From NCBI GenBank assembly GCA_021234155.1, contig JAJEKV010000242.1, forward strand, positions 186,001 through 250,000: a DNA stretch of 64,000 nt, given 5' to 3'. The position numbers and the translations under genes were made by a program. The stretch comes from Isoetes taiwanensis. Lineage: Eukaryota > Streptophyta > Lycopodiopsida > Isoetales > Isoetaceae. The notes beneath the pieces are model-generated. The model searched no databases. It saw nothing but the letters and a program-made list of their open reading frames with translations, and was not told the origin of the DNA. Shown here in pieces: positions 1 to 60,742 of the stretch; within the stretch, counting starts at the first letter, position 1, and every line of letters starts with the position of its first letter.

Positions 1-3000
1 TATGTTTTAACAAAGTCCTTTTTATTTGTGATTTTTCATTTGATTCTTTAAGCAAGCATGGCTTGCCAAAATGTTAGTGGTTTTGATTTCGAAATACTAT
101 AATGTTTCTAGACATAGTTTAACAATGTCTTTTTATTTGAGGTTTTTCATCATAATTTTTTTAAGCTAACATGAGTTGCCAAATTGTTAGTGGCTTTTAA
201 CATGGTTTGGTGGTTGACTTTTTCCCTTTCCTGTTGAGAAAGAATGCTAGTGATTTTTTTGTTAAGGAAGACATTCCTAGAGTAATATGATTCTAAACTT
301 CTTAATGGTTTTTCTGAGGTTTTGTTGGTCGATCTTTGTAATGTAGTAGCTAACATGGTCTATGGTCGAGTTTTTTTTTTTTTGTTTTTATAGTATTTTA
401 TAGTGGTATTATCCAATCTTAAGGAGCATATTTTGAGGTATTATTAAGTACACCATTCATTCCCTACATACTAATATCAAGGATGTTGAGGGAAGAGAGT
501 TATGAATCAACATGTTGTTCACATCGTCATTTGTTGTAGTTGAATTCATTGCTAATAATCATCACCTAAGTGAGCAGTGTGTGTGAATATCAACCACTGG
601 TTCAATAGTAAAAATGCATTTAGGTCTGGTTGTGTCGACTATGAATCATTGATTCAACGATAACAATACATAGGTGCTCAATAATGTTTGACGTTAGATG
701 GTCATTAAAAAGGTTTGAGATAATGATATACCATCAACAAGACCATCATGTTGAAGTAGTTATGAAATACTTGTACTTCACTGAGTGATCCACTTAGTTA
801 TGCCATAACACATTTATGGCCTTCGAGTCTAGGCATATTAAACAAAGATATTCCCTCTCACACAATCACGGGCGAAATTTTTTAAGAAACTGATGGAGGA
901 CTGAAAGTGCTAATTACCTTAACATTTAGCTATTTTTCCATTGGACTGTGGTGTTAGATTGATTTATTTTACCTTGCAACATATGTACTCTGAGGAGCAA
1001 AAATTAAGTCTCAAAACCACATAGTCAGTGTGAAGACATCAAACTGATTTGTAGTTGTGGATTTGCATTATTATCTTTGGGTATTATTATTTTTAAATGT
1101 TAAAGTTTGTTTCTTCTAGATCATTTGTGATCTTGAGAAAAAATGTGATCTAGATGTCATTTGTGATCTAGATCACTTGTGATCTTGTGTTCGCTTCAAC
1201 AAGTCATTATAATAATATGAGTTGTCTGAAGAAATTGACAATATAATATCACATGATGCCAAATCTCGGTGGAATCCGATGCTGCCTTAAGTTTTTGCAG
1301 GTTGTGGTCAAAATTTGCTTTGTTGGTGCAGAGTGGCAGTGCAGAGTGCAATAGTGGCACACAAGGTGACTAAATGGGCAAATCATCTCAGACTATTTTT
1401 TAAATGCTCTAACGTGTAGAATAGCGTGAATGGTGAAGACCGATCTGCATCGCGATTAACGCATATGAGATGCTAACTTATATAGCATCCATGTTCTAGA
1501 TTGTTTTTTGAAATGCAAGGCACAAAGCAACTTCGTTGAACCATACAATATGGTGCAACTTTTGTTTTTCTAAGTTGCTCAAAATAAATTGCTTATAAGC
1601 CATGCTTCAATACATATGAAGTGCCCTCTTGCATTTAAGTTCTATATTCCTAAAATACTAAGACACTGAAAGCATTTAGGTTTTTTAAGTTGTGAGAGAA
1701 ATATTTTAAAGAATATAAGTTTGATTCAAAATACAAACCAAGTTCAAAGGCAAACAATCCACTTGGTTTATTCAATGCTCAACATGAGTAATCCATTTGA
1801 TCTCATATAGAGTTTAGAATAACATATGCAAGAACAAATCTCTTCCAACATGGATTCTCCTTAGATCATTATTGTTTCATCATTCGAACATTATTTGATA
1901 TTGAAATTAAATCGAAACCATTAAAAAAACATTGTAGCTATTTCAATGTAGCTTGGTAATGACTGAGTTGCCTTGAGCATTAACCATCCTTTTATTCACA
2001 GCAAATCGGCATGAACCTATTTCGGAACGGGGAAGAGCGAGAACCATTTAAGTAAAACAATTAGGAATCGACTTATAAAAACTACAACTATACACCTTGG
2101 TTTTGATTTACACAAGTTTGGTGGTTTTGCCTTCTATTCAAATTCAGCTTGGCTCCAAAAGATTGGACCGAGCCTTTTTGGCTAGATAGAATGCGTAAGG
2201 AAACAACTTCATATGTTTGTAATATCTAAAAATTATTTGAACCATTGACACAACTAGAACCATTGGATTTCCAAAGTTAGATAATTGTTCCTAGGTTATT
2301 TTCGTCTACTCTTCTATATACAGAAGAAGTCTAACTTGTTCACATAAGTTTCTCAATGCTTCTTTTTTGCCCCACCTCTGTTCAACTAGCAATTATTATA
2401 TGGTTTTATATTTCAATCTAACTTTCAAGGCTTTTTTACGTTGCCTAATTTGCAAAGTTAGAAAACTTTCATGTTGATTGCTCTTGAATTGTAGATGACT
2501 AACCATATGCAAAACATGTTACTTTCTCTAGTATGGTCTAAGCATTCTACATTATGGATCCAATTGAAAACCAAAAGTTGGTGCTAAGTAGCTTGGTACT
2601 AAGTGCTTCTGAAACACGCACAAGCGCTAATTTGTCCGAATACAAGGACAAGCTGGATGTTAGATTGCCTCATAATCGTTGTGAAGTCTAGAGGAGACCC
2701 TAGCTTTAGGTAAGAGCTAATGGGGTTGTATGGCGCAACATATACGATCGGGTTGCCTAAAATGCAAAGGCACATTACTTTGTTGGCTTCAGAATACTCA
2801 GTTGCCATGCTTGAGATACAAACTATGTATGCACTTTGAGATACGAATTGCTCTTTATATTAAACTAGAACTAATTTTTCACAATTATTATGCATGATAT
2901 ATTTGCCCAAACATGCTTGGCTAGCATGCCTAGTCAATCATAGACAGACACCTGAGTGTTGGCTAACTTTACACCCCTGTTACAAAAGCACTATGGGGCC

Positions 3001-3558
3001 AAATCACAAAAGTTGGATTCTAGGAGGATGCAATGTTATCTTCCTCAACACGTGATTTCAGACTACTTCGAGTTGTTCACATTCTGGATCATTTTCGATA
3101 CTAGTTTATTGGCATACTGTTGTTTTATTCCTACTGATACTTTGTTATGCTTGTTGTTCTAGAGCTCATAATAATAATATGAAGCTCTAAAATGATCTGC
3201 AACTTTTTCATGTGCTTCTCTATAAAGCACAACCATGCTATGTACCTGAGATTTTATAATTAATGGTATTGCTATCAAAAAAAAAAAAAAAAAAAAAAAA
3301 TGTTATCATCCATATCAAAAGAAACAATATCAATGCGTTCTATGAATTTTAAAGGGAAAAATATTGAGACAATACTTTCCATGGTAATGTGTGCACGATC
3401 AACTTCCGTATATTTATAACTCAAGATTGTTAATTGTTTTTACTTTGTATTAAATAGCTTTCGAAGGTAGAAACGCTGGCACGGCAAGTGAGTTAGGGGA
3501 AGAAGCCGTATTCTGCACTGTTGTCGAAGGTCGAATTGGGGATAAGAGTTCGCGTTCG
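1..3558. repeat. Long direct repeat, copy A (left end outside window)
   Basis: This segment is repeated nearly base for base at about 9083-12642. Pairing starts at the first base of the window, so the true left end lies outside and the unit is at least 3.56 kb. It holds no coding region I can support; the short ORFs are not conserved in style. Features shared by both copies include a CTAGATCA/TGATCT-rich stretch near 1115-1185 and a retroposon-like 3' end with poly(A) at 3277-3300. The copies stop matching at about 3558, just after GATAAGAGTTCGCG. It could be one LTR of a giant element, a segmental duplication or an assembly duplication; the sequence alone does not decide. Confidence 0.85.
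3277..3300 (+). repeat. Poly(A) tract inside repeat copy A
   Basis: A run of 24 A follows an AT-rich tail (TTTATAATTAATGG then TATTGCTATC), which resembles the 3' end of a LINE or other retroposon. The same junction is present in copy B with 20 A. The run is therefore inside the duplicated unit and predates the duplication. Confidence 0.8.
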
Positions 3559-3559
3559 T

Positions 3560-5703
3560 CCACCGGTATTGCTATCATCTCCCTGTAGTCGCCAAACATG
3601 GACCTAGAAGAGGTCAAGTTGATACCGCCTCTCTCTTGTCCAAACGTGCTCCGCCGAGGTCTTTGGGTAGGAGGCGCCTCGTTGTTTCCCCTCTGATTCC
3701 CATCCGCTCTTGGAGTGCCATGAACTCCTCCTCTATGGGTAACTCCCGTTGAGCCATCATCACGCCTAATGCTTTAGACTTCTATCTATGATGATGGCGA
3801 TTAACGCGTCGCACCTTCCTTATACCGATGAGGAAGTCTTGAGTCTCCGGCCCGGCGAAGTCATCCAGGTCGGGCTCTTTGGCGTAGGAGGTGTAGGAGC
3901 TCGTCTATCCCGGTAACCCTTGTCCCTGCGCATTCGAAGGTTCTTGATGTCGTGTAGGGTCAGGTATGCTTCTCCTTGAATGATGACCGAGGTTAGGCTC
4001 ATGATGCCTAGCCCAAGTGGTGGAGCTATCCTTGTCGCTCTTAACCCCTCTTCGAAGCTCGGAAGGTGCTCCTCTGCTTGTTGCCTTTCTTGTGTGGAGT
4101 CGACGTCGATGATGTCTTCCACGTCAGACCCACGTCCTTCCTCTTCCTCTTCCTCCTGCTCTGCCTCTTCGTACTCCAGAAGCATCTGCTCCTCTTCGCC
4201 TGCTTCCATGGCCATGGGCTTAAGATCTAGGGGTTGAACAAAGGTTCTCCTATCTGGGTTTGGGCCCTTTGGGACAAGAATATAGCTACAGCTGCAGTGT
4301 AGGAGAAATATCTCCTCCTATTTACCGCTCTGAGACATGTAGTTGGGCATGCGGGTAGCCTTATTTTCTAGATACTTGTCTATCTTTGGAATGTCCTGCA
4401 GAGCTTCACGAAGAGCCATGCTGGGTGCGAAGTATCCTATGCAAGGGGGAAGTTCTACCAAAGAGGGCCCTATCTTGGCATGGAACTCTGTCATGATCTC
4501 TTGGTAGTATGGAGTAGCATTGATGGTGGCATCCACATCGATCTCCTTCTGAAAAGCAATGAAGACCGAGTCGATGTCAGCTTCAGCCACATGAGCAGTG
4601 GCATTGTACCATCGCCTGAATGCAGAGGTTGCCATGATGCTACAGCTGCTGGGGTTATCAAACAGATAAGGAAGCGCCTCTGGGAGCTGAAAAATTGCAC
4701 ATCTGTTACTCTCTTCGTGCTGTCGAACTCTTGTAAGATTTCTCTGGTTAATCTTGCAAAGGTAGCTCTTGGTATTAGTAGTCCATAGCTCCTCTGAAAA
4801 TGACGGATCTCTCGAGCAGCTCTCGCAAAATAGGAGTCCGCCTTTCTCTTCATCGGCTTCTTTGGTGGTGTGGGTCTCTCCGGAGGCAGCTTCAGCGTGT
4901 TCTTGGATGGCCTTCCTCCCTCCACGTATGTCACCTTGTGTTCTTCATAATATTTGGAGTACTCCTCGTACATTTTCATGTACTCGTTGTACTCCTTCAG
5001 CTTCTTCCTGTACTCCCGCTCATGCTTGAGTACATAAGATTCTCATGCCGACCTGCCCTTCTTTGGATCTGTTGTGGAAACCCGGCCATGGGGTATGGGG
5101 GCTGGCTGGCTGCGTGATTCCTCCTCCTCGGCATCCACATTGAAGGTCGAGCCTTCTGGTTGGGCGAGGACCCTTGATTCATCTTAGATGCAGCGATTAT
5201 GTCGATGGCGATGATGGCGACTTTGTCGGGCTCCCCTCCCTTATGCTGACCCCCATTACCGGTATCGACTTTGTCTTGCGCCGGGGTTTCTTGGGCACCT
5301 CTGGATCCTTCCATTTATCCTCCTTCAACTTTTGGCGCTCCTCCCTCAATCTCTTCCGCTCCAGCTTCTCTGCAATCCTCTTCCTCTTTGCCGCTCTCTT
5401 CCTCTTTCCCATCTTCTTCAGCTTATGTACCAGCTCCTCTGGTAGTGCTTCGTCCTCGTCATCCTCGTTCTCGCCTCCATCGCCCTGATTTTCGGGGTTC
5501 TCCTGCTCTTCAGGGTTTTTGGGGTGGTCCTCCTCATCCTGCTGCTCTTGATCCTCCTCCTCAGCATCAGGATTCGTTTCAGGGTTTTCTTCTTGTCTGG
5601 CTCGCTCCTGAGCCTCTCTGGCCTTCCATTGAGCTGCGAGGACCTGGGCGCTGACATAATCGTCTGGTACTACCATCCGAGCGGTTTGTTTGATACGGGC
5701 CAT
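3560..5703 (-). pseudogene. Retrotransposon gag-position ORF with histone-H3-like domain, decayed
   Basis: I read one interrupted ORF from the ATG at 5703 down to about 3820, with coding-like sequence on to about 3560. The N-terminus is MARIKQTARM, very close to the H3 tail ARTKQTARK. Next come an acidic, then a basic coiled segment (5660-5200), and a charged region. At 4814-4725 is REIRHFQRS followed by LLI....F.RL.REI.Q.F, which matches H3 helices alphaN and alpha1 at 17 of 30 positions without gaps. EIRHFQ and LLIP resemble plant centromeric H3 more than canonical H3. A weaker alpha2/alpha3-like part follows at 4640-4480. The C-terminal part is Glu-rich. Breaks: frameshifts near 5200 and 4700, TGA at 5045-5043 (CGA in origin), and TAG at 4320-4318 (CAG in origin). 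It lies downstream of the primer-binding site at 7112-7101 on the same strand, in the place of gag. No pol is seen. H3 homology of the helix part is strong; the function is unknown. Confidence 0.7.
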
Positions 5704-6346
5704 ATTTTGAAATAAGTTGATCGCCTTCCAAGTGCCTAAAAATTGCCTTGTTGGATGGAGAGCAGCTAGCTGGAGAAGGAAAGTGAAAATGAAGAATCCT
5801 AGTGGTCTATTTATAGGTCTGGGGATTTTAGGGTTTGGACCTGCAATTTCATATCATACCATTCTGTAAGGCATTAGTGTTTGTAGGATCAATACATTAG
5901 GTTTGTTTAGGCAAAAAGTGCCCACCACTCACACAGGGCGTGAGAAGCACTTTCAAAAGTTTTGGAAATGCCCAGGGCGCACTCTGTGAGGGGTCACCCC
6001 TTTTTAGCTCAAACTTTCATTTTATAAACAGTTTCTTGATGTTATAACATACAGTTCTAGCTCAAATTCAAGGTTTAAGCTGCCCTGCCTATCAGATTGC
6101 TCTAATTATGCATCTATCTAGGTCAACATGGGTCCACCACTCACACAGTGCGTGAGAAGCATTCTCAAAAGTTTTGGAAATGCCCAGGGCGCACTCTGTG
6201 AGGGGTCACACTTTTTTTGCCTTAATTTTTCAGGATTTTCCTATCTTTCTTCCTGTCCTAGCAGCTCTAAGGATTGGAAAAACTTTTCCCAATTTTCGAG
6301 GTTCATGCTTGGGTTGCTATTCCCAAGACTGGAAGTCTACTGTTAG
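5704..6346 (-). other. Retroelement 5' leader with internal duplication
   Basis: This non-coding sequence lies between the primer-binding site and the gag-position ORF. A block of about 75 bp at 5925-5995 recurs at 6133-6215. Both contain CCACTCACACAG, GCGTGAGAAGCA, AAAAGTTTTGGAAATGCCC and CACTCTGTGAGGGGTCAC. CTCACACAG and its near complement CTGTGAG would form stems in the transcript. A leader role is inferred from position only. Confidence 0.55.
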
Positions 6347-7045
6347 CAGGGATAGGTTCAATACGATGTACGTTTTATATGGAATACGTATGAATTGTAT
6401 GATACGGCACATATTTGTCGTATAAAACGTAAAAAATACGGCAAAAAAAAATTCCGGCGTCGGAAGATTTTCGCGTATGCGAAACCTTCTAAATCGCGTC
6501 TAAAACAAGTGAAAAACAGCGTGCGAGGAAAAAAAACTTTCGTTGCCAAGAACACGAGAGCAAATTCCAGCGTCACGTAAAAAACCTTTTGCGCGCACGC
6601 GAAACGTATTTCAGCGTCATTTAGGTTTTCAAGTTTCAAATTCATAATTTTTTTTCTTGCGTACGAATTTGAAATTTGAATTTCGCGTACGCAAAATCGT
6701 ATAAACAGCATACGCAAAACTTTTTTCGCGTACGCGAAACAGTATAAAGCGGGTAGCAAAAAAAAAAAATTATTACAAATTTGAAATTTGAAAATCACAT
6801 GGAAGAAGGTTTCCGGCGTCTGTAACGCCCCAATATTTTTTTTTTTTTTTCCAGACGCTGTTTTTCTTGGTCACAGACGCAAAAAAACTTCGCAGACGCG
6901 AATCTGAAGGTTTCATGTATGCGAAATTTTTTTTTTCCAGCCGGCGACCTTTTAATACTTCAAATACGTATTTTATTAAAAAATATGTATTTTTTGACTT
7001 TATACGTCAGGAATTTGAATTTTGTACGTATAGAACCTATCCCTG
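6347..7045. mobile_element. hAT-type MITE with 8-bp target duplication
   Basis: The ends are inverted: CAGGGATAGGTTC at 6347 and GAACCTATCCCTG ending at 7045, with similarity continuing inward (ATACG, GTAC). The flanks are the same 8 bases, ACTGTTAG, at 6339-6346 and 7046-7053. An 8-bp duplication and CAGGG termini are the hallmarks of the hAT superfamily. The 699-bp interior has no ORF of its own. It is full of palindromic TTCGCGTACGCGAA-like units and of CG dinucleotides, unlike its AT-rich surroundings. Confidence 0.9.
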
Positions 7046-7100: not shown

Positions 7101-7112
7101 GCTCTGATACCA
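7101..7112 (-). other. Primer-binding site (tRNA-Met type) of LTR retroelement
   Basis: On the minus strand this reads TGGTATCAGAGC, the classic plant LTR-retrotransposon primer-binding site complementary to initiator tRNA-Met. It lies 3 bases after GGGGACGTCA, the expected CA end of an LTR (7116). The element therefore runs leftward on the minus strand, into the H3-like ORF. Confidence 0.8.
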
Positions 7113-7115
7113 CCG

Positions 7116-7200
7116 TGACGTCCCCTACTTCTTCTACGATGCTCCCATCGTATCAGAAGGCGGAGTTCATCCCCCTGGCAGCCAAACTGGCAGGACAGTG
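7116..7200 (-). mobile_element. LTR 3'-end fragment
   Basis: About 85 bases from the LTR end match the reverse complement of 29612-29694 almost exactly; they share TACGATGCTCCCATCGTATC (a short palindrome) and AGGCGGAGTTCATC. Similarity is lost inward. The rest of the LTR is missing or replaced, with the hAT remnant beginning near 7295. Confidence 0.7.
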
Positions 7201-7294: not shown

Positions 7295-8763
7295 CTATTT
7301 TTCAAGGAAGTTACACAACACAAGTTTTAGTTCATATTCATATTTCCTCCACCATGTCATCATCATCTTCATCCTCCTCATCATGAAATATTCCATCTCA
7401 TTTGAACATCCAGTATAAATATGGCGATATTCTGCACTATCCTTCCATAATTTAACTGCCATAGTAAAGTCAAAGTCTTCAAGAGGTGGCCCTTCCATGG
7501 AAATACGAAGTAAAGCATCTGTTCCTTCCGTCTGAAGTCTATTTCTAAACTTACTTTTAATGCGGTTCAATCGACTGAACCCTCACTCACATGCTGCTGT
7601 GCTAGAACGTTGCACAAGTCCAATGATTGCAACCTTTAGAAGCTCAGGAAATTTATCCTTCCATGTATCACTGTAATAAATCATTGTCCAAATGTCCCTA
7701 AAATTTCTTCCAAACCATTCAGTACTTGCTTGCCTCCTAAACACTATAAATTCTTGACATAACTTACCTTTGTCCACAATTGGAGGATGTATACGAGCAC
7801 CTACTTTCTTTTCATTTCCATAAAATTCTCCAATGTTCTTTATCTGCTGAACTCCATAAACTTTCAATTCCTGTTTACCACTAGGCATGTTCATAGGAGA
7901 TAAAATTTTCAAGTCAGAAAGAGTTACCTGATCCTGAAGTCTAGATTCCAATGTACTAGTTATTGCTTTTGCAAAAGCAGTTTGGAACTCAATTGCAAAG
8001 GTAAGATCTTCACCATCTATGTTTCTATCCATCTCCACACTCCTATACATGTGACCTTTTAGTGCTGATCTTAGAGCTGCAAGCATTCCATCATTTCCCC
8101 CAAAGTCAGGAATAACTGGATACTCTTTGCTATCCTTGTCAAATCCATTGAGATCTGACAAATTTTGTTGTGAAAAAGCCTCATCTATTTCCATAATTGC
8201 AGCCCTGCATAAACTAGCAATGCATGTTACATCAACATACTCCTTCTGAAATTCTAAACTTAGATTTGACGTGATTTTCAGAATATCAGCAAGAAAGTGT
8301 AGGATATAAACAATCTTGAATTTCTTCAAGGACAAATAGATGGGCTTCCTGTCAGTATCAACCTCCAAAGCCTTCATCATAGGCTCATATGCATCACATA
8401 CTCTTGCAATAGCACCATGCCTACTAAGCCATCTTGTTTTCACAATTCCTAAAACCTGTAAATTAGAATATTCAAGTGCTACTTGCATGTCATGCAGCTT
8501 CCCTTGCCTCAAAGTGCTTCCAGAGAAATAAGAGGCTACACGATTCACTAATTCATCGACAAGCTTACAAGTTGTCTTTGTGGTATCTTTTTTGGAAGCC
8601 TCCTCCACACACAAATTTGTGCGATGTGCACAACAATGCAAACTAGTCATGAAGGGATTAACCATCTTCAACCTAGTTGCCACACCTGTGTTTTGACCAA
8701 CCATCACAGAAGCTCCATCACTACCAAACCCAATGAACTTTCGGATAACAAGGCACCCAAAGA
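7295..8763 (-). pseudogene. hAT-family transposase-like pseudogene (KIAA1586/ZNF862-like)
   Basis: The reading frame is open from about 8763 to 7295 except for one in-frame TGA at 7585-7583. Just upstream of the first ATG the frame reads FIGFGSDGASVM, followed by VGQNTGVATRLK, NPFMTSLHCCAHRTNLC and KTRWLSRHGA. These are conserved blocks of the RNaseH-fold region in hAT-derived proteins of the KIAA1586 type. The C-terminal dimerisation region reads STAACE, stop, GFSRLNRIKSKFRN and EGPPLEDFD, so the stop sits inside the hATC motif where an Arg codon CGA is expected. The N-terminal BED finger and first part of the domain are missing, and a TAA lies just upstream. It is close to a hAT MITE, but no shared ends show that it mobilised it. 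Confidence 0.85.
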
Positions 8764-8778
8764 TTTAACTATCATAGA

Positions 8779-9082: not shown

Positions 9083-12000
9083 ATATGGTTTAACAAAGTC
9101 CTTTTATTTGTGATTTTTCATTTGGATTCTTTAAGCAAGCATGGCTTGCCAAAATGTTAGTGGTTTTGACTGGAAATACTATAATGTTTCTAGACATAGT
9201 TTAACAATGTCTTTTTATTTGAGGTTTTTCATCATAATTTTTTAAGCTAACATGAGTTGCCAAATTGTTAGTGGCTTTTAACATGGTTTGGTGGTTGACT
9301 TTTTCCCTTTCCTGTTGAGAAAGAATGCTAGTGATTTTTTTGTTAAGGAAGACATTCCTAGAGTAATATGATTCTAAACTTCTTAATGGTTTTTTACAGG
9401 GTTTTGTTGGTCGATCTTTGTAATGTAGTAGCTAACATGGTCTATGGTCGAGTTTTTTTTGTTTTTATAGTATTTTATAGTGGTATTATCCAATCTTAAG
9501 GAGCATATTTCGGAGGTATTAAGTACACCATTCATTCCCTACATACTAATATCAAGGATGTTGAGGGAAGAGAGTTATGAATCAACATGTTGTTCACATC
9601 GTCATTTGTTGTAGTTGAATTCATTGCTAATAATCATCACCTAAGTGAGCAGTGTGTGTGAATATCAACCACTGGTTCAATAGTAAAAATGCATTTAGGT
9701 CTGGTTGTGTCTGACTATGAATCATTGATTCAACGATAACAATACATAGGTGCTCAATAATGTTTGACGTTCAGTCTGTCATTAAAAAGGTTTGAGATAA
9801 TGATATACCATCAACAAGACCATCATGTTGAAGTAGTTATGAAATACTTGTACTTCACTGAGTGATCCACTTAGTTATGCCATAACACATTTATGGCCTT
9901 CGAGTCTAGGCATATTAAACAGCATATTCCCTCTCACACAATCTGGGCCAGAAATTTTTTTAAGAAACTGATGTGGAGGACTGAGTGCTAATTACCTTAA
10001 CATTTAGCTATTTTTCCATTGACTGTGGTGTTAGATTGATTTATTTTACCTTGCAACATATGTACGCTGAGGAGCAAAAATTAAGTCTCAAAACCACATA
10101 GTCAGTGTGAAGACATCAAACTGATTTGTAGTTGTGGATTTGCATTATTATCTTTGGGTATTATTATTTTTAAATGTTAAAGTTTGTTTCTTCTAGATCA
10201 TTTGTGATCTTGAGAAAAAATGTGATCTAGATGTCATTTGTGATCTAGATCACTTGTGATCTTGTGTTCGCTTCAACAAGTCATTATAATAATATGAGTT
10301 GTCTGAAGAAATTGACAATATAATATCACATGATGCCAAATCTCGGTGGAATCCGATGCTGCCTTAAGTTTTTGCAGGTTGTGGTCAAAATTTGCTTCGT
10401 TGGTGCAGAGTGGCAGTGCAGAGTGCAATAGTGGCACACAAGGTGACTAAATGGGCAAATCATCTCAGACTATTTTTTAAATGCTCTAACGTGTAGAATA
10501 GCGTGAATGGTGAAGACCGATCTGCATGCTGACAACGTACATGAGATGCTAACTTATATAGCATCCATGTTCTAGATTGCTTGAAATGCAAGGCACCAGC
10601 AACTTCGTTGAACCATACAATATGGTGCAACTTTTGTTTTTCTAAGTTGCTCAAAATAAATTGCTTATAAGCCATGCTTCAATACATATGAAGTGCCCTC
10701 TTGCATTTAAGTTCTATATTCCTAAAATACTAAGACACTGAAAGCATTTAGGTTTTTTAAGTTGTGAGAGAAATATTTTAAAGAATATAAGTTTGATTCA
10801 AAATACAAACCAAGTTCAAAGGCAAACAATCCACTTGGTTTATTCAATGCTCAACATGAGTAATCCATTTGATCTCATATAGAGTTTAGAATAACATATG
10901 CAAGAACAAATCTCTTCCAACATGGATTCTCCTTAGATCATTATTGTTTCATCATTCGAACATTATTTGATATTGAAATTAAATCGAAACCATTAAAAAA
11001 ACATTGTAGCTATTTCAATGTAGCTTGGTAATGACTGAGTTGCCTTGAGCATTAACCATCCTTTTATTCACAGCAAATCGGCATGAACCTATTTCGGAAC
11101 GGGGAAGAGCGAGAACCATTTAAGTAAAACAATTAGGAATCGACTTATAAAAACTACAACTATACACCTTGGTTTTGATTTACACAAGTTTGGTGGTTTT
11201 GCCTTCTATTCAAATTCAGCTTGGCTCCAAAAGATTGGACCGAGCCTTTTTTGGCTAGATAGAATGCGTAAGGAAACAACTTCATATGTTTGTAATATCT
11301 AAAAATTATTTGAACCATTGACACAACTAGAACCATTGGATTTCCAAAGTTAGATAATTGTTCCCTAGGTTATTTTCGTCTACTCTTCTATATACAGAAG
11401 AAGTCTAACTTGTTCACATAAGTTTCTCAATGCTTCTTTTTGCCCTGCTCTGTTCAACTAGCAATTATTATATGGCTTTATATTTCAATCTAATTTTCAA
11501 GGCTTTTTTACGTTGCCTAATTTGCAAAGTTAGAAAACTTTCATGTTGATTGCTCTTGAATTGTAGATGACTAACCATATGCAAAACATGTTACTTTCTC
11601 TAGTATGGTCTAAGCATTCTACATTATGGATCCAATTGAAAACCAAAAGTTGGTGCTAAGTAGCTTGGTACTAAGTGCTTCTGAAACACGCACAACTAAA
11701 ATGTGCATTAAAAATGCTAATTTGTCCAGAATACAAGGACAACTGGATGTTAGATTGCCTCATAATCGTTGTGAAGTCTAGACAGACCCTAGCTTTAGGT
11801 AAGAGCTAATGGGGTTGTAACTGCAACATATACACGATCGGGTTGCCTAAAATGCAAAGGCACATTACTTTGTTGGCTTCAGAATACTCAGTTGCCATGC
11901 TTGAGATACAAACTATGTATGCACTTTGAGATACGAATTGCTCTTTATATTAAACTAGAACTAATTTTTCACAATTATTATGCATGATATATTTGCCCAA

Positions 12001-12642
12001 ACATGCTTGGCTAGCATGCCTAGTCAATCATAGACAGACACCTGAGTGTTGGCTAACTTTACACCCCTGTTACAAAAGCACTATGGGGCCAAATCACAAA
12101 AGTTGGATTCTAGGAGGATGCAATGTTATCTTCCTCAACACGTGATTTCAGACTACTTCGAGTTGTTCACATTCTGGATCATTTTCGATACTAGTTTATT
12201 GGCATACTGTTGTTTTATTCCTGCTGATACTTTGTTATGCTTGTTGTTCTAGAGCTCATAATAATAATATGAAGCTCTAAAATGATCTGCAACTTTTTCA
12301 TGTGCTTCTCTATAAAGCACAACCATGCTATGTACCTGAGATTTTATAATTAATGGTATTGCTATCAAAAAAAAAAAAAAAAAAAAGTTATCTTCCATAT
12401 CAAAAGAAACAATATCAATGCGTTCTATGAATTTTAAAGGGAAAAATATTGAGACAATACTTTCCATGGTAATGTGTGCATGATCAACTTCCGTATATTT
12501 ATAACTCAAGATTGTTAATTGTTTTTTACTGTATTCGTAGCTCGAAAGGTAGAAAGCTGACGCTGGCAAGTGAGTTAGGGGAAGAAGCCGTATTCTGCTG
12601 TTGTCGAAGGTCGAATTGGGGATAAGAGTTCGCGTGCGTCCT
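9083..12642. repeat. Long direct repeat, copy B
   Basis: It is collinear with 1-3558. Most differences are short replacements, often at CAG or CTG triplets, plus one 20-base indel near 11700 and a shorter poly(A) at 12367-12386. Its right limit at about 12642 is the same sequence point as in copy A. No supported gene lies within it. The similarity may extend left of 9083, but the partner sequence is outside the window. Confidence 0.85.
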
Positions 12643-14647
12643 GGACAGATGTTGGCCGGCCATGGCGTTGCCAATTCCGGCTGCTGCAGGTGGCGGGTTT
12701 AGCATGAAGCTGGTCTGTTGCTGATGCTTGCAAGTTCGTGGGTTGGATCGGCAGCGCTTTCTATCAGGGGAGACGCCCTGTTTTGGTCGTTGCTTTGTTA
12801 GTCACAGATCCGATAGGCAGAAGACCTCTGTTATCTTCTCCGGCATCAGCAAACTGGCCTATCCATAGTTGCTGCACATTCCGATGCCAGAGACTGCATT
12901 CCTATCTGTCGTTCCCAGATCCGGTCCTACTTACAAGCACTGATAGCGATTGGGGATCTTGTAGGCGGAGCTCTCTTGATCAGCCCTGATAGCGGCCTCC
13001 TTGGAGAAGTCTGAGTGTGGATCCATTTCTTATCATTGGCGGTTGCGATTGAACACATCTAAACCCATTGTTGTTGTATAGAACAGATTGATCTTTGAAG
13101 GGAAATAGGCCTTGATCAATTCCCTTCGCCCTGAAGCCCTTGGAAATTGCCTTAAGAAAACTGGATGCTCCATAGGTTGGTTGTGGAGACCAAGTCCCTT
13201 GTTCTTGAGCAGAGCTGTTAATAGACTCTAAGAATTAGTTCTTCTGATTTCTAACTGTTGAACTAAGGGCTTTTTGTGGGAGGACCGATGCTGTGAATGT
13301 GCATATGGCACTTCTTTGTTGTAGACAATGTTTCTGTTCTGATACATGTTCATGTTCTAATACAATGATGGCGTTTACTTGTGTCTCCCTACTGTATTTG
13401 CATGCTGCCCAGCCGTATTTTGGTTTGGGACCATGGTTTCTGGGCAAATTGTGCTCCTATTTTTTGGGGTCAATTTGACCCCCTTGTTGATGGTAATCGG
13501 CAGCCCGGATTACGCAAAAAGATATTCCTCGAAGCGGGCCATCGACGGCCTAAAACGATAATGCAACCAAAAAATGATAATAATGGATGAATATCAAAAG
13601 AAAATATATTGGGGCATTGGTAATATATTGGAGCATTGGTTTCCATCTCCCATTTTACCAATGGAAAATAAATTTGAAACTACCTCCCGCGGGAAACAAT
13701 CTAATTTATTCTAATGTATGGACAATTCAGATTAGTACATGTCATCGATCCAAGAAGAAAGATCCGATTGGCGGGATTTTAGGTTACCGCTTCAATCTCT
13801 ACTTCCGCTTCAATCTTTGCTTCCGCTTGAGGTTACACTGCTTCCGCTACATCCGCTTTAATCTGCTTCCGTTTCAATCCGCTTCTTCAATCGGTTTGCA
13901 AGATATGCCTGGTTTTTGCAGAAGTATAGATGAGTTTTCTCACGTCCTTGGCGTCCTCTATCCGAATATCTATCGCTCTTTCTAGCTCAAACAAAGACAG
14001 CTTCTTCGGAACCAAAGGTTGGTTACCTTTGATCTCTAATGGGTGGCTCAGCTTCAGGAAGAGTTTTTGTCACAGGACCTCGCAAACATTGGAGGTTAGT
14101 TGGTCATTCTCGTTTCTGATTTGAGTGGGGCAGCGGGTCTTTGTAAGCATGGATGTGCTAGTGGTTCCATTTTTGGTAAGCAAGACATCAGTACAAGGTT
14201 AACCGAAGGGATTGGGTTAGTTTCAGATGAAGTGGTGATGGGAATGAAGATACAACGGAGTCCTTGTTCTTTATGCAGGTTTCATGTGTTATGCAGCTAA
14301 GCTGTTCATATAACCTAGGTGGGTTAAGCCCCCCAAGGCTTGATATTTCTGTCTTTTGATAGCCTACCAACTATATATATGCGGAATGTATAAATTAAAT
14401 ATATCTCTTTTTGCCTACATCTCGAATTTACTCTTACACAACACGACAATGGCAAGTCACACTAACATGATCAACAAGCATACAAGTAACAAAGATGGGA
14501 ATCTGGATTATCAAAGGGTCTATTCAATCAAAGGAATTGCAGAGTTAATCGAAGAGCCAACACTCTTAACAGTTTACGGGCCTACATTGTATGGGTGTAT
14601 AAGTCAGGGCAAGTACATGGCAGTTAGGACTAAGTTAACAACTACCA
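12643..14647. other. Gene-free region with degenerate tandem repeat
   Basis: I recognise no gene here. At 13787-13895 a degenerate unit close to GCTTCCGCTTCAATC recurs about six times. The part just before 14648 may be the 5' untranslated region or lost ORF1 side of the LINE that follows. No ORF1 zinc knuckle is visible. Confidence 0.5.
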
Positions 14648-15727
14648 ATGAAAGTGATATCATGGAACTTGAGGGGGATTAATGGGACACTAAAACGAGC
14701 CAGAGTACTAGCGGCAATAAGGTCAATGGCAGCTGATGTCATTCTCCTCCAGGAACATAGGCTGCCAGAATTTGAAGCTAGATCTTTGGGAACTTGGGTA
14801 GGGGGGCAATATGACTCGTTTACGTGTGCAGCTCAAGGCACAAAGGGGGGCACTGCTCTATTGTGGAGGGGGCAAAATGTTGTACTCCAATTCAGGGGCA
14901 CAAATGGGAGATGGCAGGCAGTGATTTTTGAGACACGGGGATGTAGGTGGGGTCTTCTCAACATCTACGCTTCTAATAAGCCTGCAGAAAGGGCCATAAT
15001 ATGGAAAGAGATTGAGACCTGGATCCTACAGCAAGAAGTGGAAAATTGGCTCTTGGGTGGAGATCTAAATATGACCGATATCTGGGATCAGAAAATTGGA
15101 CTCCACAGGAACCTGTCAGCTGATGAGAATGCTTCATGGAACTCCTTAATTGTCAATGTGGGCTTTGCTCTGATCCCGCCCTCTAACACATCCTTCTCTT
15201 GGTCCAATAAGCAGAAGCGACATGATCGAGTGTATTGTTTGCTTGACAGATTCTACTTGGTCAACAAGTCAGCGGGTTTCCTAGACAGATGCTTTGTTGA
15301 AGGGGATTTGGCTTTCACCCAGTCTGACCATGTTCCGCAAAAGCTCACCTTTGAGGATGCTCCCACGGGTAATGTGCCCTTTAAGTTTAATATTTCACTA
15401 ATAGGGAAGTCAGCATTTTGTGATGCATTCCGAACCTTTTTAGTGTCCCATCCTCCGGAGAATGGGTTGCCAAGTATGAAGGCCTGGATTCAGTGGGTCG
15501 GGGTGATTAAGGCTTGGATTAAAAATTGGGGTCGTGATAGGGCTAGAGAGTTTAAAAGATCAAAAAATACTATATATGACCATCTCAGAATCACAAAGCA
15601 AGATCTTCTAACAGACCCTTTTAATGTTACCCTTCATTCTTTAGAAGCAGACCTTGAGGGCAGAGCTAAGGCTATCGAAGAGGAAGAGGCCAGAGGGGTC
15701 GCTGTGAGATCCAAAACGAAATGGTAT
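14648..15727 (+). pseudogene. L1-type LINE ORF2, endonuclease part (split element, left piece)
   Basis: The ATG at 14648 opens an apurinic-type endonuclease: MKVISWNLRGING, VILLQEHRLPEFEA with the catalytic Glu, GGDLNMTDIWDQK, and TQSDHVPQ with the catalytic His. About 360 codons are open. A linker then leads to RSKTKWY, where the sequence is cut by the DNA transposon starting at 15728. The continuation TEVDHENSRHFFRL resumes in frame-compatible fashion at 22745. The 5' side has no ORF1, so the element was probably 5'-truncated. Function lost by the insertion. Confidence 0.92.
15721..15727. repeat. Target-site duplication, left (ATGGTAT)
   Basis: ATGGTAT here and at 22738-22744 flank the inserted 7-kb element. 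Joining the flanks once around this heptamer restores the expected LINE reading frame (K-W-Y-T-E), which supports the insertion boundaries. Confidence 0.85.
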
Positions 15728-16326
15728 CCCGGGGGGTTCACCTCTATATAAGGGGCATATGGCATGTCGCGTGCATCAAGTCGAGAAACCCCCTCAGATA
15801 CAAAATGACCCTCCATAGAAACCCCTATGTATAATGGGTCCCATATCGTCGAAGAATCATACCCGATTCCATACTTTTACACCCAGTCTAAGCTCTTCTT
15901 GCCCTACCCTCAACCTTATTTTTACGTCCGAATTTCATTCATGTATCCTACCCTCTACCGTATTTTTACATCCAGTCCGCAAATGTTGCATCCGGTCGGT
16001 ATTTAGGGTTCTTCGTGGGTTTCATTTGAGTTCAATGGTCACTCCGGAAAATAAGAAAGAAAAATACGGAATTTTATTTATTTTAATTAAATCGATTTTA
16101 GGATGACATCATAACGAAATTCATTATTGATTATTGAATAATGAATTTAAATTAATTATTGGTCATGATTTTATTTTCGGGCACGTCTTTTAAGGACGTC
16201 ATTATGGTGAACTTCGCCATCAAATTTGCAATGATGAAGCTCATTCCCTCTAGCGCCCTATTCCTCTCCTTCTCCCGATCCGACACTCCTTCTCCCGATC
16301 CGCCTATTCCTCTCCCACATTCGACA

Positions 16327-16662
16327 ATGGCGCGGATTAAGACCACCTCCCGGTTGCCCACTGAAGAATCCGTGGGCTCTGCTCCACCGAAGGAAGAGGC
16401 CGCGCCTGAGGAAGAGGCCGCGCCTGAGGAAGAGGCCGCACCTGAGGAAGAGGCGAAGGGCACTAAGCTGAAGGTTGTCGCGAAATTTTCCTGCATGGAA
16501 GTGGTGCACATGCAAGATCATGGAGCTCATATCACTGAAAAAGTTCAGCAATGGGTTGATCGGGTGACTCCTGCAGATGAGCGGCTTTTGGAAATGAAAA
16601 TCCGTGCAAGAGGGAACAATCTGTATGTGCTGCTTAGGATGCCACCTCAAGGCGGTCGGTGA
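16327..16662 (+). CDS. Small ORF with H3-tail-like start and PEEEAA repeats
   Basis: This 111-codon ORF runs from ATGGCGCGG at 16327; an earlier in-frame ATG at 16159 exists, but its extension looks non-coding. It begins MARIKTTSR and continues with a Glu/Ala/Pro-rich segment made by an 18-bp unit repeated three times (16389-16450). The rest, KLKVVAKFSCMEVVHM to YVLLRMPPQGGR, is not recognised. It lies 0.6 kb inside the left end of the DNA transposon, on the strand opposite to the large gene. Whether it is translated or belongs to the transposon is unknown. The likeness of its first nine residues to the H3 tail is weak and may be chance. Confidence 0.4.
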   Translation: MARIKTTSRLPTEESVGSAPPKEEAAPEEEAAPEEEAAPEEEAKGTKLKVVAKFSCMEVVHMQDHGAHITEKVQQWVDRVTPADERLLEMKIRARGNNLYVLLRMPPQGGR

Positions 16663-22140: not shown

Positions 22141-22737
22141 TTTTTTTCAGCTGACACAAGCAAGGAAACAACAAAGTAATATTAGAGAGCTGCTTACAAT
22201 TTGAATGTATGGCGTTACCGACATGCATGCACAAAACCGATCTTAACGGACCTTACTTAGATGCAAAAACCCTCTAAGAACCAGATTTCCACCACGGATC
22301 TCCACGGAATGGAGGCGAAATGGAGAAAGGGGAAGCTTGGCCTGCAAAAAAAACCGAGCATCAACAATGCAAATGGACTTTAAAATCAAATGCATCAACA
22401 ATGGTTTATGCTGCTAGTCTAACTACTTCCTAATCCGTTCATGACTAAACTCTGTGCTAGATTTTTATGTGGCAGGGACGAAAAAACTTCAAAACATTAC
22501 CTCCGAAACACCAAATCCTAAAACGTTTTTCTGGCATGTGCGCTTCGGATTCAAACCCCTAAAACGTACTCTTACGGCTCAGCAGCTCCAAGAAATCCAT
22601 CCCCGGACCGTGGAAAATGCATACATCTGGGCGCCAAAACGTATGAGCGCCCGCATGTATACGTACTATTTTTTTTCGAAAAAACCCCTCTCCCGTCCAC
22701 GCACATGTATTCTACGGAATACATACGTGAACCCCCC

Positions 22738-22744
22738 ATGGTAT
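22738..22744. repeat. Target-site duplication, right (ATGGTAT)
   Basis: Partner of 15721-15727. LINE coding sequence resumes immediately after it. Confidence 0.85.
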
Positions 22745-25511
22745 ACAGAGGTTGATCATGAGAATTCTAGACACTTCTTTAGACTTGCTGGGGCCAGATT
22801 GGCAGAAAATAGTGTCACTTCTATCATTGATGATCAGCAGAATAGGATTGATTCATATGATAGGATCAGAGCATATGTGAAAGAAAGCTTTCAATGCATG
22901 TTCAAAGAAGACCCCCTTCCCACCAACTATGGCTCCATACTTCAAAACTGGATGGCAAAAATTCCTTGGGGGGGCAAAATCTCTGAGAATGACAACAAGT
23001 CTTTAATGCGTCACCTGGACGATGAAATCTTCAGAACTCTTTCCTCCCTTGCTTCAGGTAAATCTCCTGGCCCTGATGGTTTTCCTCCAGAGTTTTTAGT
23101 GGAATTTTGGGATCTTCTGGGTCCGGCCTTTATTCGGGCAATAAGGGGGGCTTGGGAGGCTCGATATCTACACCCAGCTTTGTCCACAGGTTTTATCTCT
23201 CTGGTCCCAAAGGTGGCTAGGCCACAAAAGCTAAATGAGTGGAGACCTATAGTGCTGACTAATATGCTTTACAAGGTCATCATGAAGATAATTGCCAACC
23301 GACTGAAGCCAATCCTCAATAAGGTCATTGGAAGTCAGCAAACGGCTTTCTTACCAGGTAGGCATGTTTTGGATAACTTTATAGCAGCAAGAGAAGGATT
23401 GCATTGGTATAAACTCTCCAAACAGAATTGTGTTTTACTGAAAATGGATTTCCGCAAGGCATATGATACTCTTCGCTGGAGGGGTCTTCAAGATATTATG
23501 CTACATATGGGTTTTGATGCATCCTTTGTTGAGATGTCTTTAGGTTTCAACAAACTTGCTTCAGCGTCAGTTTTGATTAATGGGCAACCCTCGGGGCTAT
23601 TTGAACTAAGAAAGGGTGTCAGGCAAGGTTGCCCTCTGGCACCCTATTTGTTTTTTATCATAGCAAATTTACTTACTAAGATGGTAGAGTTCAAAATATC
23701 TGAGGGCACTCTCATCGGGTCTTGACTCCACGACTCCAAAAAAGCTTTCAATCATGCAAAGATCATGATGATACGTTCATCTTCCTCAGATATGATGACT
23801 CCAGCTCTGCAGCCTTCCATGAAATTGTAGATGCATTTGGGAAGTTATCAGGGATAGAGCTCAATGCGACAAAATGTGCAGTTATTTGGCCCTTTGATGC
23901 AGATGTTGATCCGAGGGTAAAAGACTTTGGATTTCGAATTCTTAAGGATGAAGCCACAAAATTGCTTGGTATACCCCGGTCCTTTTCGATAATCTAAAAG
24001 GACTCGACCCCTATCTTGGACAACCCGAGAAAGAAAGTCAACTTATGGTCGAGCAAAAGGGCTTGGCGATCGCTGGAAAGATTGCGGTTTGCCAATGCAA
24101 TCCTTGCCGCTTCTCATGTATACTACTCCTCAGCTATGGTTGCGCCTAAATACATTTATAATCAAATCCACACCATCATCAGAAAGTTTATATGGGGGGG
24201 AGGAATGCATAAGGTGGCATGGTCGGTACTATGTATAGATCGAAAGGATGGAGGGATGGGGTGCAAGGACCTGGAAACTCAAGCTTCGGGCAAGCAGTGC
24301 AGATATGTGTGGAGAGCATTACAAAGTATTACCTCCCCAGCTCTGCACTTTGTCAAATATTGGCTTCAACGTTGTACCTTAAAAGGTAAACCTTCTTTAC
24401 CCAGGGAGGAAATGGGTTCCTTCTTTTATAGTTACAAAATCGCCCCAGGCACATCACCAATTATGCGGAAGCTATTAGAGGCTTGGTTAGAAGTGAAAGT
24501 CTTTTTAAGCCAATGGAAGCTCCGAGGGAGGCTGGAAAGTTGAGCATTTTTTGGAACACTCAGATATGGATGAGAAATAACCTCCCTCTTGGTCTCACAT
24601 ACCCCCGCATTTTCCTTAAATGGAGGTCAGCAGGTATCACTAGAGTGGCACATCTTTGGGATGGAGTACGATGGCTCTCCTGGTCTCGCTTTAAAGAAAA
24701 GGTACAAGGTGCAGGGGAGGGTGATAGGAAGATCTACCGTGAAATATGTAGCACTTTGGCTAATCTTTCAGGACAGGATGGTCCAAGTGATAGATGGGCT
24801 TGTAAACAGGAGGAGAAATATGTTGTCAGCACGATCTACTGCCTTCTTTGTGCTGATTCCCCTCTCAAAGCTGCTGACAGGTTGGGAGTTGATATTTTAC
24901 AGGCAAAAACTACTAGCTAGGTCATGGACTTCACTATGCTCAAGAAGGTTGCAGTTTTTCAGATGGTTAGCTTTACAGGGAGGATTGAGCACTATGGAGA
25001 GACTCTATGGAAAGGGGACTCTTCTGAGTGATAGATGCCCGCTTGGATGCAGTACCTCAGAAACCCTCTCTCACTTATTCTTTTGTCCTAAGGTTATGAT
25101 CTTTTGGGATTGGGTGTGTCCGCTCATTGGCACCAATGTTTTGCAATGGCCAGCAATAATTACTGATGGAGATGTTATCTCTGCGTCCCTTCTTAACATA
25201 GGGCTGTGGACAATATGGAAGCATAGATGTGGAATTTCTATGGGAGGACAACAATTTTCCTTGGACAAGATGAAGAATACTTTTAACATGGAGGTGGCAC
25301 TCATGGCTCTCGCCCATCATCGGAAATATGGGCTCAACTATAACAAAAATCTAGACAGGATTGGTAAGATCCAAGGATTTTTATGTGTTTTTAAGTGTCA
25401 TTGGTTACCGAGGATGATATGAGCTGGATATGCAAAGATTGGCTTTATTAACCCCTTTAGGTGGGATATATGTATAACACTTACTCTATAAATTAATATA
25501 ACATATTCATA

Positions 25512-25542: not shown

Positions 25543-26082
25543 GGGAAGTAGGCGTAAAAGCATAGCCGATAAGCACGTGAATCGGTAAGGGAATTCTAGG
25601 TTGGAGACAATGTATGGTTGAAGATCAAAGTCAAAGTGCGAAGCTCAGATCCAAGAATTGCAAGAAGCTTGCTCCAAGATGGGTGGGCCATTCAGATAAC
25701 AAAAAGAGTAGGTAGGCAATCCTACAAGTTGGACCTCGCCAAAGACATCTCAAAATCCATAGGGTCTTCCATGTAAAGTCCCCCCAAGAGGCACACTCCT
25801 AATCCAGAGGAAGTATTGGAGACAACTGAGTTACTGGTAATGACGGACGACCAGCTTGAAATCGTCCCAGAGGTTCTTCTTGACAGGGCCTATAAGAAGA
25901 CAAGAAGATCCCAATTTCTCCAATACCTAGTGAAATGGACGCATTTACCTATGGAAGACGCTACGTGGGTACTACAATCAGATTTGGAGAAGCAGTATCC
26001 CCAATTCATGGAGCAATGCAAGCGTCGGCTCGTCACCGAAGTAGTCGACACCGAACTAATAGGTGAGTGGAAGGTAGATTAA
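25543..26082 (+). pseudogene. Ty3/gypsy chromovirus integrase C-terminus and chromodomain
   Basis: The 3' end of a gypsy polyprotein, with frameshifts. KLAPRWVG and ITKRVGRQSYKLDL correspond to the GPF/Y module of the integrase; KIHRVFHV and RHTPNPEEV follow in shifted frames. From 25816 an open frame gives VPEVLLDRAY, FLQYLVKWTHLPMEDATWV and LEKQYPQF, a chromodomain (KWxxxxxxxATWE type) that ends at TAA 26080-26082. Upstream pol is absent, because the LINE poly(A) abuts directly. The 3' LTR should follow, but I cannot delimit it. Confidence 0.85.
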
Positions 26083-29611: not shown

Positions 29612-29694
29612 GGCCCCTGCCAGTTTGACTGCCAGGGGGATGAACTCCGCCTTCTGATACGATGGGAGCATCGTAGAAGAAGTAGGGGACGTCA
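29612..29694 (+). mobile_element. LTR 3' end of the same family as 7116-7200
   Basis: The sequence matches the inverted LTR end near 7116-7200 almost base for base and ends in GGGGACGTCA. The next bases, CAGAAGTCGTGC, are not a primer-binding site, so this is a 3' LTR or solo LTR rather than a 5' LTR. Confidence 0.7.
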
Positions 29695-30449
29695 CAGAAG
29701 TCGTGCTGGGCAATTCAGGATTTGCCATAGTGCCTTTTGGACCTCTACTATTTTGGATCTTCGTTTTAAACCGTGATTATCTGGGTTTTAATCTGTTGTA
29801 ATATTGTAGAGATGATGGTGTTTCAATGTCTGGGATAAGAAATGGCGGAGACAGAATAAGAAAGAGTTCTCACCCTAATGTATATTATTATGCTTTACAA
29901 AACTCCCCTAATGTGGATTACTATATTATTATGCTTTACAAAACTCTTGCAATTCCTTTTCTGTTTCAAGACCCCAAAACACCTTAACCATTAAATTCAA
30001 TAGTTCACAAGATACTTTTCTTTAGACATTGTCACCTGTATTCACCCTCTCTTCAGTTTCCTTCTTTCCTTCCCCATTCTATTTCTTTTTCTTAAACTTC
30101 CCCAGCCTGCCCTTTTCTTTTTCTTTTTGCAACGGGGGGATTCTTTCTCATATACCTTGCTTTTATCCAGATCCAATCCAAGTACCTTTTTGGCCCTTCT
30201 CATTTTATTACAACGTTAAAAACAGTGCTCTGTTGAATGATAGAAAAACAAATAAATAAAAAAGGAAGTATTTAACATTATCAAGATTTAAGACATATAC
30301 GCCAACGAAGTACTACCCCAGTAGAGGTATACATACATACTCGAACAAGAGCAACTGTGTTAAACCTGTCTCAGCCTTCAATTTAGACAAATAGGCAACC
30401 ACATTTTGTAACTAGACATAGTACCATAAACACCTTATGCAAGAATGGC

Positions 30450-51740: not shown

Positions 51741-52276
51741 ACGCAATTCCTAAGACCCCGAAGGGGCCAAAAAATAATTAAGTTACACAAACCATTACAT
51801 CCAACACTTTAAAATTAAAATCCCCCTGAAACCCCCTTTGGTTTGGGTGCATATTCACACGGGGCATGATCACATTGAGAGCTGTCGGATGAGCATATTT
51901 GCCTATTATTCCTCGATCTAGACCGTAGATAATGATTCTCATTTGTGGAATATACTTCTACAAGTTTTTGTATACTGTATAATGAGGTTTTCAAAATACT
52001 ATAAGGTTTGAGGCAATGTACTACATGGTGTTGATTTTGTACATGTATTGTAGAAGAATACCCCACAAACGAGGATCGCTATCTACGGTCTAGATCAAGG
52101 AATATTAAGTAAATATGCCCATCTGACAGCTCTCGATGCCCAGAGTCACTCCCCGTGTGCATATGCATCTAAACCAAAGGAGGTTTCAAGGGGAATTTAA
52201 TTTTAACGTATTGGATGTAATGGTTTGTATTAATTCAAAAAAAAAAAAAAAAATGGTCCTTCGGGGCCTAAGAAAA
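51741..52276. repeat. Large inverted repeat (~200-base arms)
   Basis: The left arm at 51741-51935, reversed, matches 52074-52276. Both share ATCTACGGTCTAGATC, TTGGATGTAATGGTTTGT, and a terminal CCTTCGGGG hairpin followed by CTTAGG or CCTAAG. The right arm has an internal A-run at 52239-52253. The arms are diverged, so they are probably two copies of one small element in opposite orientation. Confidence 0.8.
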
Positions 52277-55455: not shown

Positions 55456-56133
55456 GGGGACTGTCATGAGCCTCCGAACAGAATACCGAAAATGTACGAA
55501 CGAACCAAGAACATGTGCAAGAATCAAAGGAAGAATCTCATATATCAAGAGCATAAAGTACAACAATGCCCAAAGGGCACGTGGAGATGCTACCACATGA
55601 TCAACAATAGACAAGAGCGCAGAGGCTCAAGACTGCAGGAGCAAGGACTAGAACGAGAACCGATTCGAAACCTCGGCTAGGTTAAGGCAAGGCCATGCTC
55701 CCAATATGGTGAGCAAGGCGCAAGGCCAAGACTAGGAGAAGAGACCCATAACTGGTGTTGAACCGGAATGGTTCTGCAAGAATGAGTGGCCTCTATATAT
55801 GGGGCCAACCTAGGAACCAACGGACCAGATCGCGCCACTCCAACGGGCAAGATCGTGCCAAGTGCGCGCATGCACGCACCTTCTGGAATGTTCCAAACGG
55901 TGGCTTCTAGAATATCCTGGAACACTGTCCCTGGAATGTTCTGGAACCGTCAAGATCGACGGACTAGATCGCGCCACTTCAACGGACGAGATCATGTCAC
56001 GTGTTGAGCACACACGTGGCTTCTAGAATATTCGGAAACATTTGGAGATGATGCATAATAATATGAAGCACTAATATTTACAAGAAACAAAGGCAGCCCA
56101 CTTGGTGAAGATGTGTGACTCATAATTAAGAAG
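55456..56133 (-). mobile_element. LTR with heat-shock elements, copy 1 (inverted)
   Basis: It is the reverse complement of 58075-58735. On the minus strand it contains the HSE cluster (55881-55947), a TATA box near 55790-55800 and a transcribed part, and runs into the shared leader ending near GGCTCATGA. The 5' end is truncated at about 56133, inside the tRNA-like part. Its sequence differs from copies 2 and 3 by scattered changes. Confidence 0.8.
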
Positions 56134-56948
56134 CTTGATAAGGATGGGAATGGCTCTACTATGGGTGTCTTGAAGGGTGGAGTGGGCCACCTACCACAAG
56201 AAATAATAAAAGGGATACTATCGGTGCCTTAAAGTGGGACATTGGTACCAGAGAAAAGTGAATGGGGTTGACAACATTAATGTGGAGAAGGTGGTGGGCA
56301 TAGGTGGCGACACTTTTGAGGGCAATAGTCCATTTTGCACAAAAAACAGTGGGGATGGGACGGGCTCAAAAAGCAAGGAAGACAACCCTCCTCTTTTGAT
56401 TGGAATTTGAACTCTAGAAGATGTGACTACGGTTGCCATGTTACATAAGTATGGTGCCATTAAAGTTAATGATGGGTCGCATGGGGTGATGGAAAAAAAG
56501 TGCAACGGCCCAAATGGAGGCAGGGATGCATATCCATGGGAAAGGAAGGAAAAGTCAAGATGCGGTACATGGTGTGGGGGATGACCTTACTCCTAGGGAA
56601 AGTACACCATCAATAAATGGGTTCTTAGGGGGCAAATGTCCTTGCGATCGACTAGGAAGTCCCTTTGGAAAAAGAGGTAGGTTATATTCCCCAAACATGT
56701 ATGTGTTTCTTATGGATAACTTTATGTTCAAATATATGGGTGAATGTTACCACCCATAGGAAGATGTTTAGCAAGGGGTGTGAATCTTTTACCACCCATA
56801 TGCATTTTCATTAGTACCGGCCGACCTTTTACCCACTGGCAGGATCTGTGCTTCACCTTAATTATTATGGTTTCAAAAACCATATGGTCTACTTAGGTGC
56901 AGGTGTATCTGTGTTAGGTGGTGTCTGTTAGGCGGTGGCATCTTATAT

Positions 56949-57650: not shown

Positions 57651-57977
57651 TGTAATATGGCGGCTAGGATGACCGCCAAACTACCCAAGTATTTATGATG
57701 CCAAAAGGACAATGATGGTTGGGACGTGATCGGTAGTGATACACTCTGCCCCAACAAAATGTTGCTCTAGGATAGTACGCTCCTTCAAGGGCCACTCCCA
57801 CAACTTCGCTCTTGTACCCTTAAGCCAACCACAAAGCAGGTTGTTGTTTTGCAGATAATAATAAAGTATTTTAGCAATGGCCTTTCGGGCTCTTGTGAGT
57901 GCTGAATTTCCCTCTCCTCGATCTCTTCCTGCTCCAACACTTCAACTCTAGCCACCACTGGAACCACCTAGTCCCTG

Positions 57978-60722: not shown

Positions 60723-60740
60723 AAGAAGGGGGGGGGGGTA
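60723..60740 (+). other. Polypurine tract
   Basis: AAGAAGGGGGGGGGGGTAG lies directly before TATGATGACC, the start of the 3' LTR. This is where the plus-strand primer of an LTR retrotransposon should be. Confidence 0.75.
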
Positions 60741-60742
60741 GT

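Follow-up and report, generated by a model that had tools for sequence, protein, structure and literature searches.

A decayed coding region with histone H3-like tail and helix segments, tentatively at the gag position of an LTR retrotransposon, in Isoetes taiwanensis

Capture of histone H3 by a mobile element has been described in Dothideomycete fungi, where hAT DNA transposons carry it (PMC6710886). Those elements resemble the locus described below in combining a mobile element, H3 sequence and decaying copies, and by analogy we regard them as the nearest precedent. They differ from it in being DNA transposons with a near-plain H3 gene as cargo, whereas here the H3-like sequence appears at an LTR-element gag position, in a chimera with a large insert. 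Plant chromoviruses offer a second comparison. As described in PMC3605345 and PMC2864245, they have, as here, a tRNA-Met primer-binding site (PBS) near the LTR, at most 3 bases from it in Beta vulgaris (PMC3605345), and a chromodomain links them to H3. In these elements the chromodomain of the integrase recognises H3 tails, whereas the element proposed here would carry an H3 tail itself, and the chromodomain in this window belongs to a different copy than the H3-like element. Extra or host-derived coding sequence is likewise found in the plant LTR elements Bs1 and Retrosat2 (ORF0; PMC13317346, PMC7264820, PMC3485330 and PMC3726574); the word "histone" is absent from the main texts of these four papers. 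Our search of the open-licence literature, which leaves most subscription papers outside, returned no H3-carrying LTR element in plants. Viral contigs and bacterial and archaeal genomes held no relatives, a result of little weight given that these collections contain few if any plant sequences.

The window analysed here is a stretch of 64,000 nucleotides of Isoetes taiwanensis (GenBank assembly GCA_021234155.1, contig JAJEKV010000242.1, positions 186,001 to 250,000), for which a first-pass annotation had reported one open reading frame at 3820-5703 with an H3-like domain. Its coordinates held and the coding strand is minus, but the single frame did not survive: the region consists of five pieces, A to E, spread over three frames and interrupted by an in-frame stop (Table 1), so that this copy is dead and cannot make a protein. 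Frame A is open from 5853 to 5197 and that of piece C from 5042 to 4491. The four longest minus-strand ORFs of 3450-5853 total 774 aa, whereas none of 500 dinucleotide-shuffled versions exceeded 547; 2 of these 500 contained an ORF at least as long as the longest, of 218 aa. No Pfam gag family such as Retrotrans_gag matched pieces A-E at E<=10, nothing in NCBIfam rose above cutoff for the five pieces, and searches for Rfam families and tRNAs gave 0 matches and no tRNA, respectively. Piece A also gave two weak hits below the Pfam cutoff, to CDC45 (0.0012) and PFF1_TM (0.0018), which we attributed to its charged composition.

Table 1. Features of the H3-like region and of related sequences in the window.
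Feature	Position	Strand	Details
H3-tail-like start, MARIKQTARM	5674..5703	-	8/10 identical to H3 1-10
Piece A: H3-like tail followed by acidic and basic/coiled sequence	5197..5703	-	169 aa: 37 K/R, 40 D/E
Piece B: disordered-looking linker	4997..5314	-	another frame than A
Piece C: helical/coiled stretch, then H3 αN-α1 (REIRHFQ...LQEF, 4814-4725)	4725..5042	-	third frame
Possible α2 remnant, ...LPEALPYLFDNPSSCSIMA	4630..4707	-	frame-aware alignment; frame of A and D
Piece D: ends at in-frame stop	4318..4944	-	A's frame
Piece E: acidic, beyond the stop	3820..4317	-	D's frame; 166 aa: 20 K/R, 32 D/E
Possible further remnant of coding region	3562..3773	-	minus ORF 3450-3773; cut at 3.56-kb repeat edge, 3561
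Two ~100-bp direct repeats in leader	5908-6008 and 6119-6220		89% identity
Non-autonomous nested DNA element, 699 bp, in leader	6347..7045		19-nt terminal inverted repeat, 95% complementary
Primer-binding site, TGGTATCAGAGC	7101..7112	-	exact; sole window site at <=1 mismatch
80-bp terminal piece of probable LTR, last 80 bases before PBS	7115..7194	-	79/80 identical to 29616-29695
Second copy of LTR end	29616..29695	+	98.75% identity
Chromodomain remnant	25867..26016	+	Pfam Chromo PF00385, E=4.1e-8; lies within 25777-26082

The minus-strand frame from 5703 opens MARIKQTARMVVPDD. Its first ten residues, MARIKQTARM, which had been noted at first pass and were confirmed at this position, score higher against H3 1-10 than any other of the 127,940 positions on both strands, and at the residue frequencies of the window the expected number of positions that match the H3 start at 8 or more residues by chance is 1.2e-4. 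The start departs from H3 at two sites, T3I and K9M (H3 numbering), the second of which leaves A7-R8 followed by a methionine, an H3K9M-like arrangement seen in one decayed copy. A1, R2, K4 and R8, which many readers of the H3 tail use, are all present. Residues 10-13 are V V P D, as against S T G G in H3, and residues 11-44 of the H3 tail find no match beyond chance (183/500 and 200/500 shuffles). Both tblastn and phmmer included a stretch in which the H3 tail would resume at GG (residue 13 on); shuffles placed it at chance level and we discarded it. Another tail-like start elsewhere in the window, MARIKTTSRL (16327-16662, plus strand; 6/10 identical), was also rejected, since chance alone would be expected to supply 0.25 positions that match at 6 or more residues. 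The short ORF behind it continues into EEAAP repeats.

About 296 codons after the tail start, and in another frame, REIRHFQRSYGLLIPRATFARLTREILQEF aligns with αN-α1 of H3.3 at 17 of 30 residues without a gap, just as the first-pass annotation had aligned it. The Pfam histone profile that it had suggested as a check scored the open frame of piece C above cutoff (PF00125, E=3.2e-6; score 27.8 bits, cutoff 26.4; residues 61-113 of the translation of 4491-5042), and no other piece put to Pfam matched this family. In the PDB, piece C matched S. pombe cnp1 best (E=4.5e-6) and found 168 distinct sequences (chains) at E<=10, with all 60 of those listed being H3 or cnp1. Searching the window by tblastn with H3.3 gave E=4.3e-7 over H3 13-88, the next match being at 0.17, and none of 300 letter-shuffled versions of H3.3, and none of 300 of Arabidopsis CENH3, reached the αN-α1 score. 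Retained residues comprise R49, E50, I51, R52, Q55, S57 and L60-I62, followed by F67, R69, L70, R72, E73, I74, Q76 and F78, with R63 replaced by P (H3 numbering throughout). A predicted model of piece C, made from the single sequence and weak, reached a pLDDT of 70.7 and had no PDB match.

Support for an H3 fold ends at αN-α1 plus a weak α2. A frame-aware alignment crosses the frame change into ...LPEALPYLFDNPSSCSIMA, where the end of H3 α2 would lie. With αN-α1 held fixed, the H3.3 score was reached by 1 of 500 shuffles when run to the end and by 2 of 500 over α2 alone, and the CENH3 score by 9 of 500; unanchored, the figures are near chance (10/300 and 17/300 for H3.3, 88/300 and 76/300 for CENH3). 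We therefore treat α2 as possible and unproven. H113 is not kept in this stretch, and α3 did not appear in the frame-aware alignment or shuffle tests of the H3-like region. Piece D matched no Pfam family of any kind at E<=10 and no histone in the PDB (best E=0.71, creatine kinase), and its single-sequence model was unusable (pLDDT 40.9); piece A likewise showed no histone in the PDB (best 0.12, Axin-1). Of the idea that both tail and fold of H3 had been captured, the tail start and αN-α1 therefore stand; the complete α1-α2-α3 fold does not, with α2 weak and α3 not seen.

A suggestion that the segment might be CENH3-like fared less well. Over the same 30 residues, H3.3 shares 17 identities, yeast H3 18 and S. 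pombe cnp1 18, while rice CENH3 shares 17, Arabidopsis CENH3 15 and human CENP-A 15 (yeast H3 and cnp1 letters taken from the PDB match). EIRHFQ and LLIP resemble plant CENH3, and F.RL.REI.Q.F resembles H3. With centromeric variants at 15-18 of 30 and H3 at 17-18, CENH3 is not preferred; H3 fits these residues equally well, and we do not call the segment CENH3.

The H3-like pieces lie downstream of TGGTATCAGAGC on the same strand, as had been proposed, with 1.4 kb between this site and the ATG. We take TGGTATCAGAGC to be a PBS of the initiator tRNA-Met type. A site within one mismatch of it also occurs in 22 of 100 shuffles, so that what lends it force is its location next to a repeat end: an 80-bp piece that ends 2 bases from the PBS recurs in opposite orientation elsewhere in the window. 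The rest of this LTR is missing beyond 7194, where hAT-like sequence starts. Within that neighbourhood, a 393-aa ORF at 7583-8764 (minus strand) has no Pfam family at E<=10 and resembles a hAT-type transposase; between it and the H3-like ORF stand the LTR end and the PBS. Half of the leader between PBS and ATG consists of a 699-bp element flanked on both sides by the 8-bp ACTGTTAG and bounded by inverted ends CAGGGATAGGTTC, which we take, from the 8-bp duplication, to be a hAT-like MITE. Without it the leader would measure about 0.7 kb.

A PBS beside a probable LTR end, as expected of an LTR retrotransposon, is present; a retroviral-type Gag was not recognised. Self-comparison of the window disclosed no second LTR 3' of the H3-like element, the pieces put to Pfam contained no pol domain (the region is cut at 3561/3562), and six-frame translation of the window held no CCHC knuckle. 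Since gag family, CCHC, pol and second LTR were all sought here and not found, "Gag" is used as a statement of position. A chromodomain remnant precedes the second copy of the LTR end by 3.6 kb, and other repeats may intervene. This arrangement hints at a chromovirus and may link the chromodomain remnant to the H3-like element.

The reading that we favour, tentatively and with a little less than even confidence, is that the locus is a decayed and truncated LTR retrotransposon with its coding strand on minus, whose gag-position protein was an H3 chimera acting as a chromatin tether or tail decoy. The element would probably be Ty3/gypsy and possibly a chromovirus. We infer that the tail, αN-α1 and the sequence around them on the PBS strand once formed a single element protein. 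Its order would have been the H3 tail start ARIKQTARM, an acidic, basic and coiled stretch of some 250 residues, αN-α1, a possible α2 and an acidic extension. That two distinct segments of H3 follow each other on one strand as they do in H3 counts for such a protein; the tail and helices now lying in different frames, in one copy, count against it. With α3 and the greater part of the H3-H3' interface unseen and H113 lost, normal H3-H3' contact looks unlikely, which would speak for tethering or decoy action more than for replacement of H3 in nucleosomes. Most likely, by this reading, the H3 parts tethered the element protein to chromatin and offered a decoy tail to host proteins that read or write the H3 tail, which would have kept the element particle attached to host chromatin or sheltered within it. 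A structural protein with an H3 tail and helices would amount to histone mimicry by a retrotransposon and would open a direct way to learn how elements escape silencing or choose chromatin. The analysis covered a single damaged copy, and H3 capture across a whole element family would be a further supposition.

The main alternative is a host gene. A variant H3 gene (or one like CENH3), or a retrocopy of it, whose tail has expanded, which happens to lie downstream of a scrap of LTR and is now a pseudogene, would be at home in a patchwork of nested repeats such as surrounds this locus, and would account for pieces without gag or pol signature and for the tail-then-helix order of H3 being kept at both ends. 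Its start methionine would nevertheless have to fall on the PBS strand at a leader-sized distance, and an acidic C-terminal extension and a tail insert of about 250 residues are not known from H3 variants; we consider this origin unlikely, if a serious contender. An H3 fragment inserted into the ordinary gag of this copy alone strikes us as distinctly improbable: two ordered H3 segments, one of them at the start codon, would require two events or an insertion within a captured H3, and an unsystematic look found no target duplication around the segments, even though the H3 tail lies far from the helices and further insertions, including the 699-bp element, are nested nearby.

Two other explanations dispense with H3 altogether. 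The weak or unseen α2-α3 would suit a histone-fold relative other than H3, such as an H3-like chaperone or TAF-type fold, with a convergent tail; against it stand the helix segment, identical to H3 or cnp1 at 17-18 of its 30 residues, and a tail that indicates H3, and we judge it very unlikely. Resemblance by chance in an unrelated protein would be in keeping with α2 and the mid-tail, each of which is near chance by itself, and is nearly excluded by the above-cutoff Pfam score, the tblastn match, the absence of equally good shuffles and the independent match of the tail.

LTR elements are silenced through methylation of the H3 tail, and the methionine at tail position 9 raises a more specific version of the tail decoy, which we regard as a long shot. 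Here the gag-position protein would be a free-standing H3K9M-like decoy whose mature N-terminus, ARIKQTARM, traps plant H3K9 methyltransferases. Such trapping would lower silencing of the element, while the H3 helix and charged regions would hold the protein on chromatin; if so, chromodomain-bearing relatives would read H3K9 methylation while the decoy protein blocks it. In a decayed copy, the K-to-M change could be a later mutation, one base away from AAG. In fission yeast, according to PMC5030085, H3K9M binds Clr4 more tightly with SAM and dominantly blocks H3K9 methylation, and a crystal structure of G9a contains the peptide ARTKQTARMSTGGKA. Residues 1-9 of that histone are ARTKQTARM, compared with ARIKQTARM here, and position 10 is V here; phosphorylation of S10 or S10D weakens H3K9M binding in tests on the true H3 sequence (PMC5030085). 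If the decoy idea is right, a parallel would be found in the VANC proteins of VANDAL elements, which are element-encoded and counter silencing; as described in PMC10398659, they do so by sequence-specific DNA binding and without histone mimicry.

The H3-like region is bracketed by direct repeats of 3.56 kb, at 1-3561 and 9084-12641, that are 96.8% identical by self-comparison. We rejected them as LTRs of this element, since inspection by eye showed that neither strand has a PBS at the inner edge. They are probably the product of a tandem duplication of a unit of about 9.08 kb, the first copy of which is cut by the window edge, and a further copy of the H3-like region may thus lie just upstream of the window. 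Elsewhere, LINE-type ORFs at 14639-15751 and 22445-23725 (both plus strand) match an endonuclease (PF03372) and a reverse transcriptase (PF00078), and a poly-A run ends near 25543. A long imperfect palindrome occupies 51787-52228, with a 76% match to its own reverse complement, and direct and inverted repeats, several of them 94-95% identical, are densely clustered at 55460-62645.
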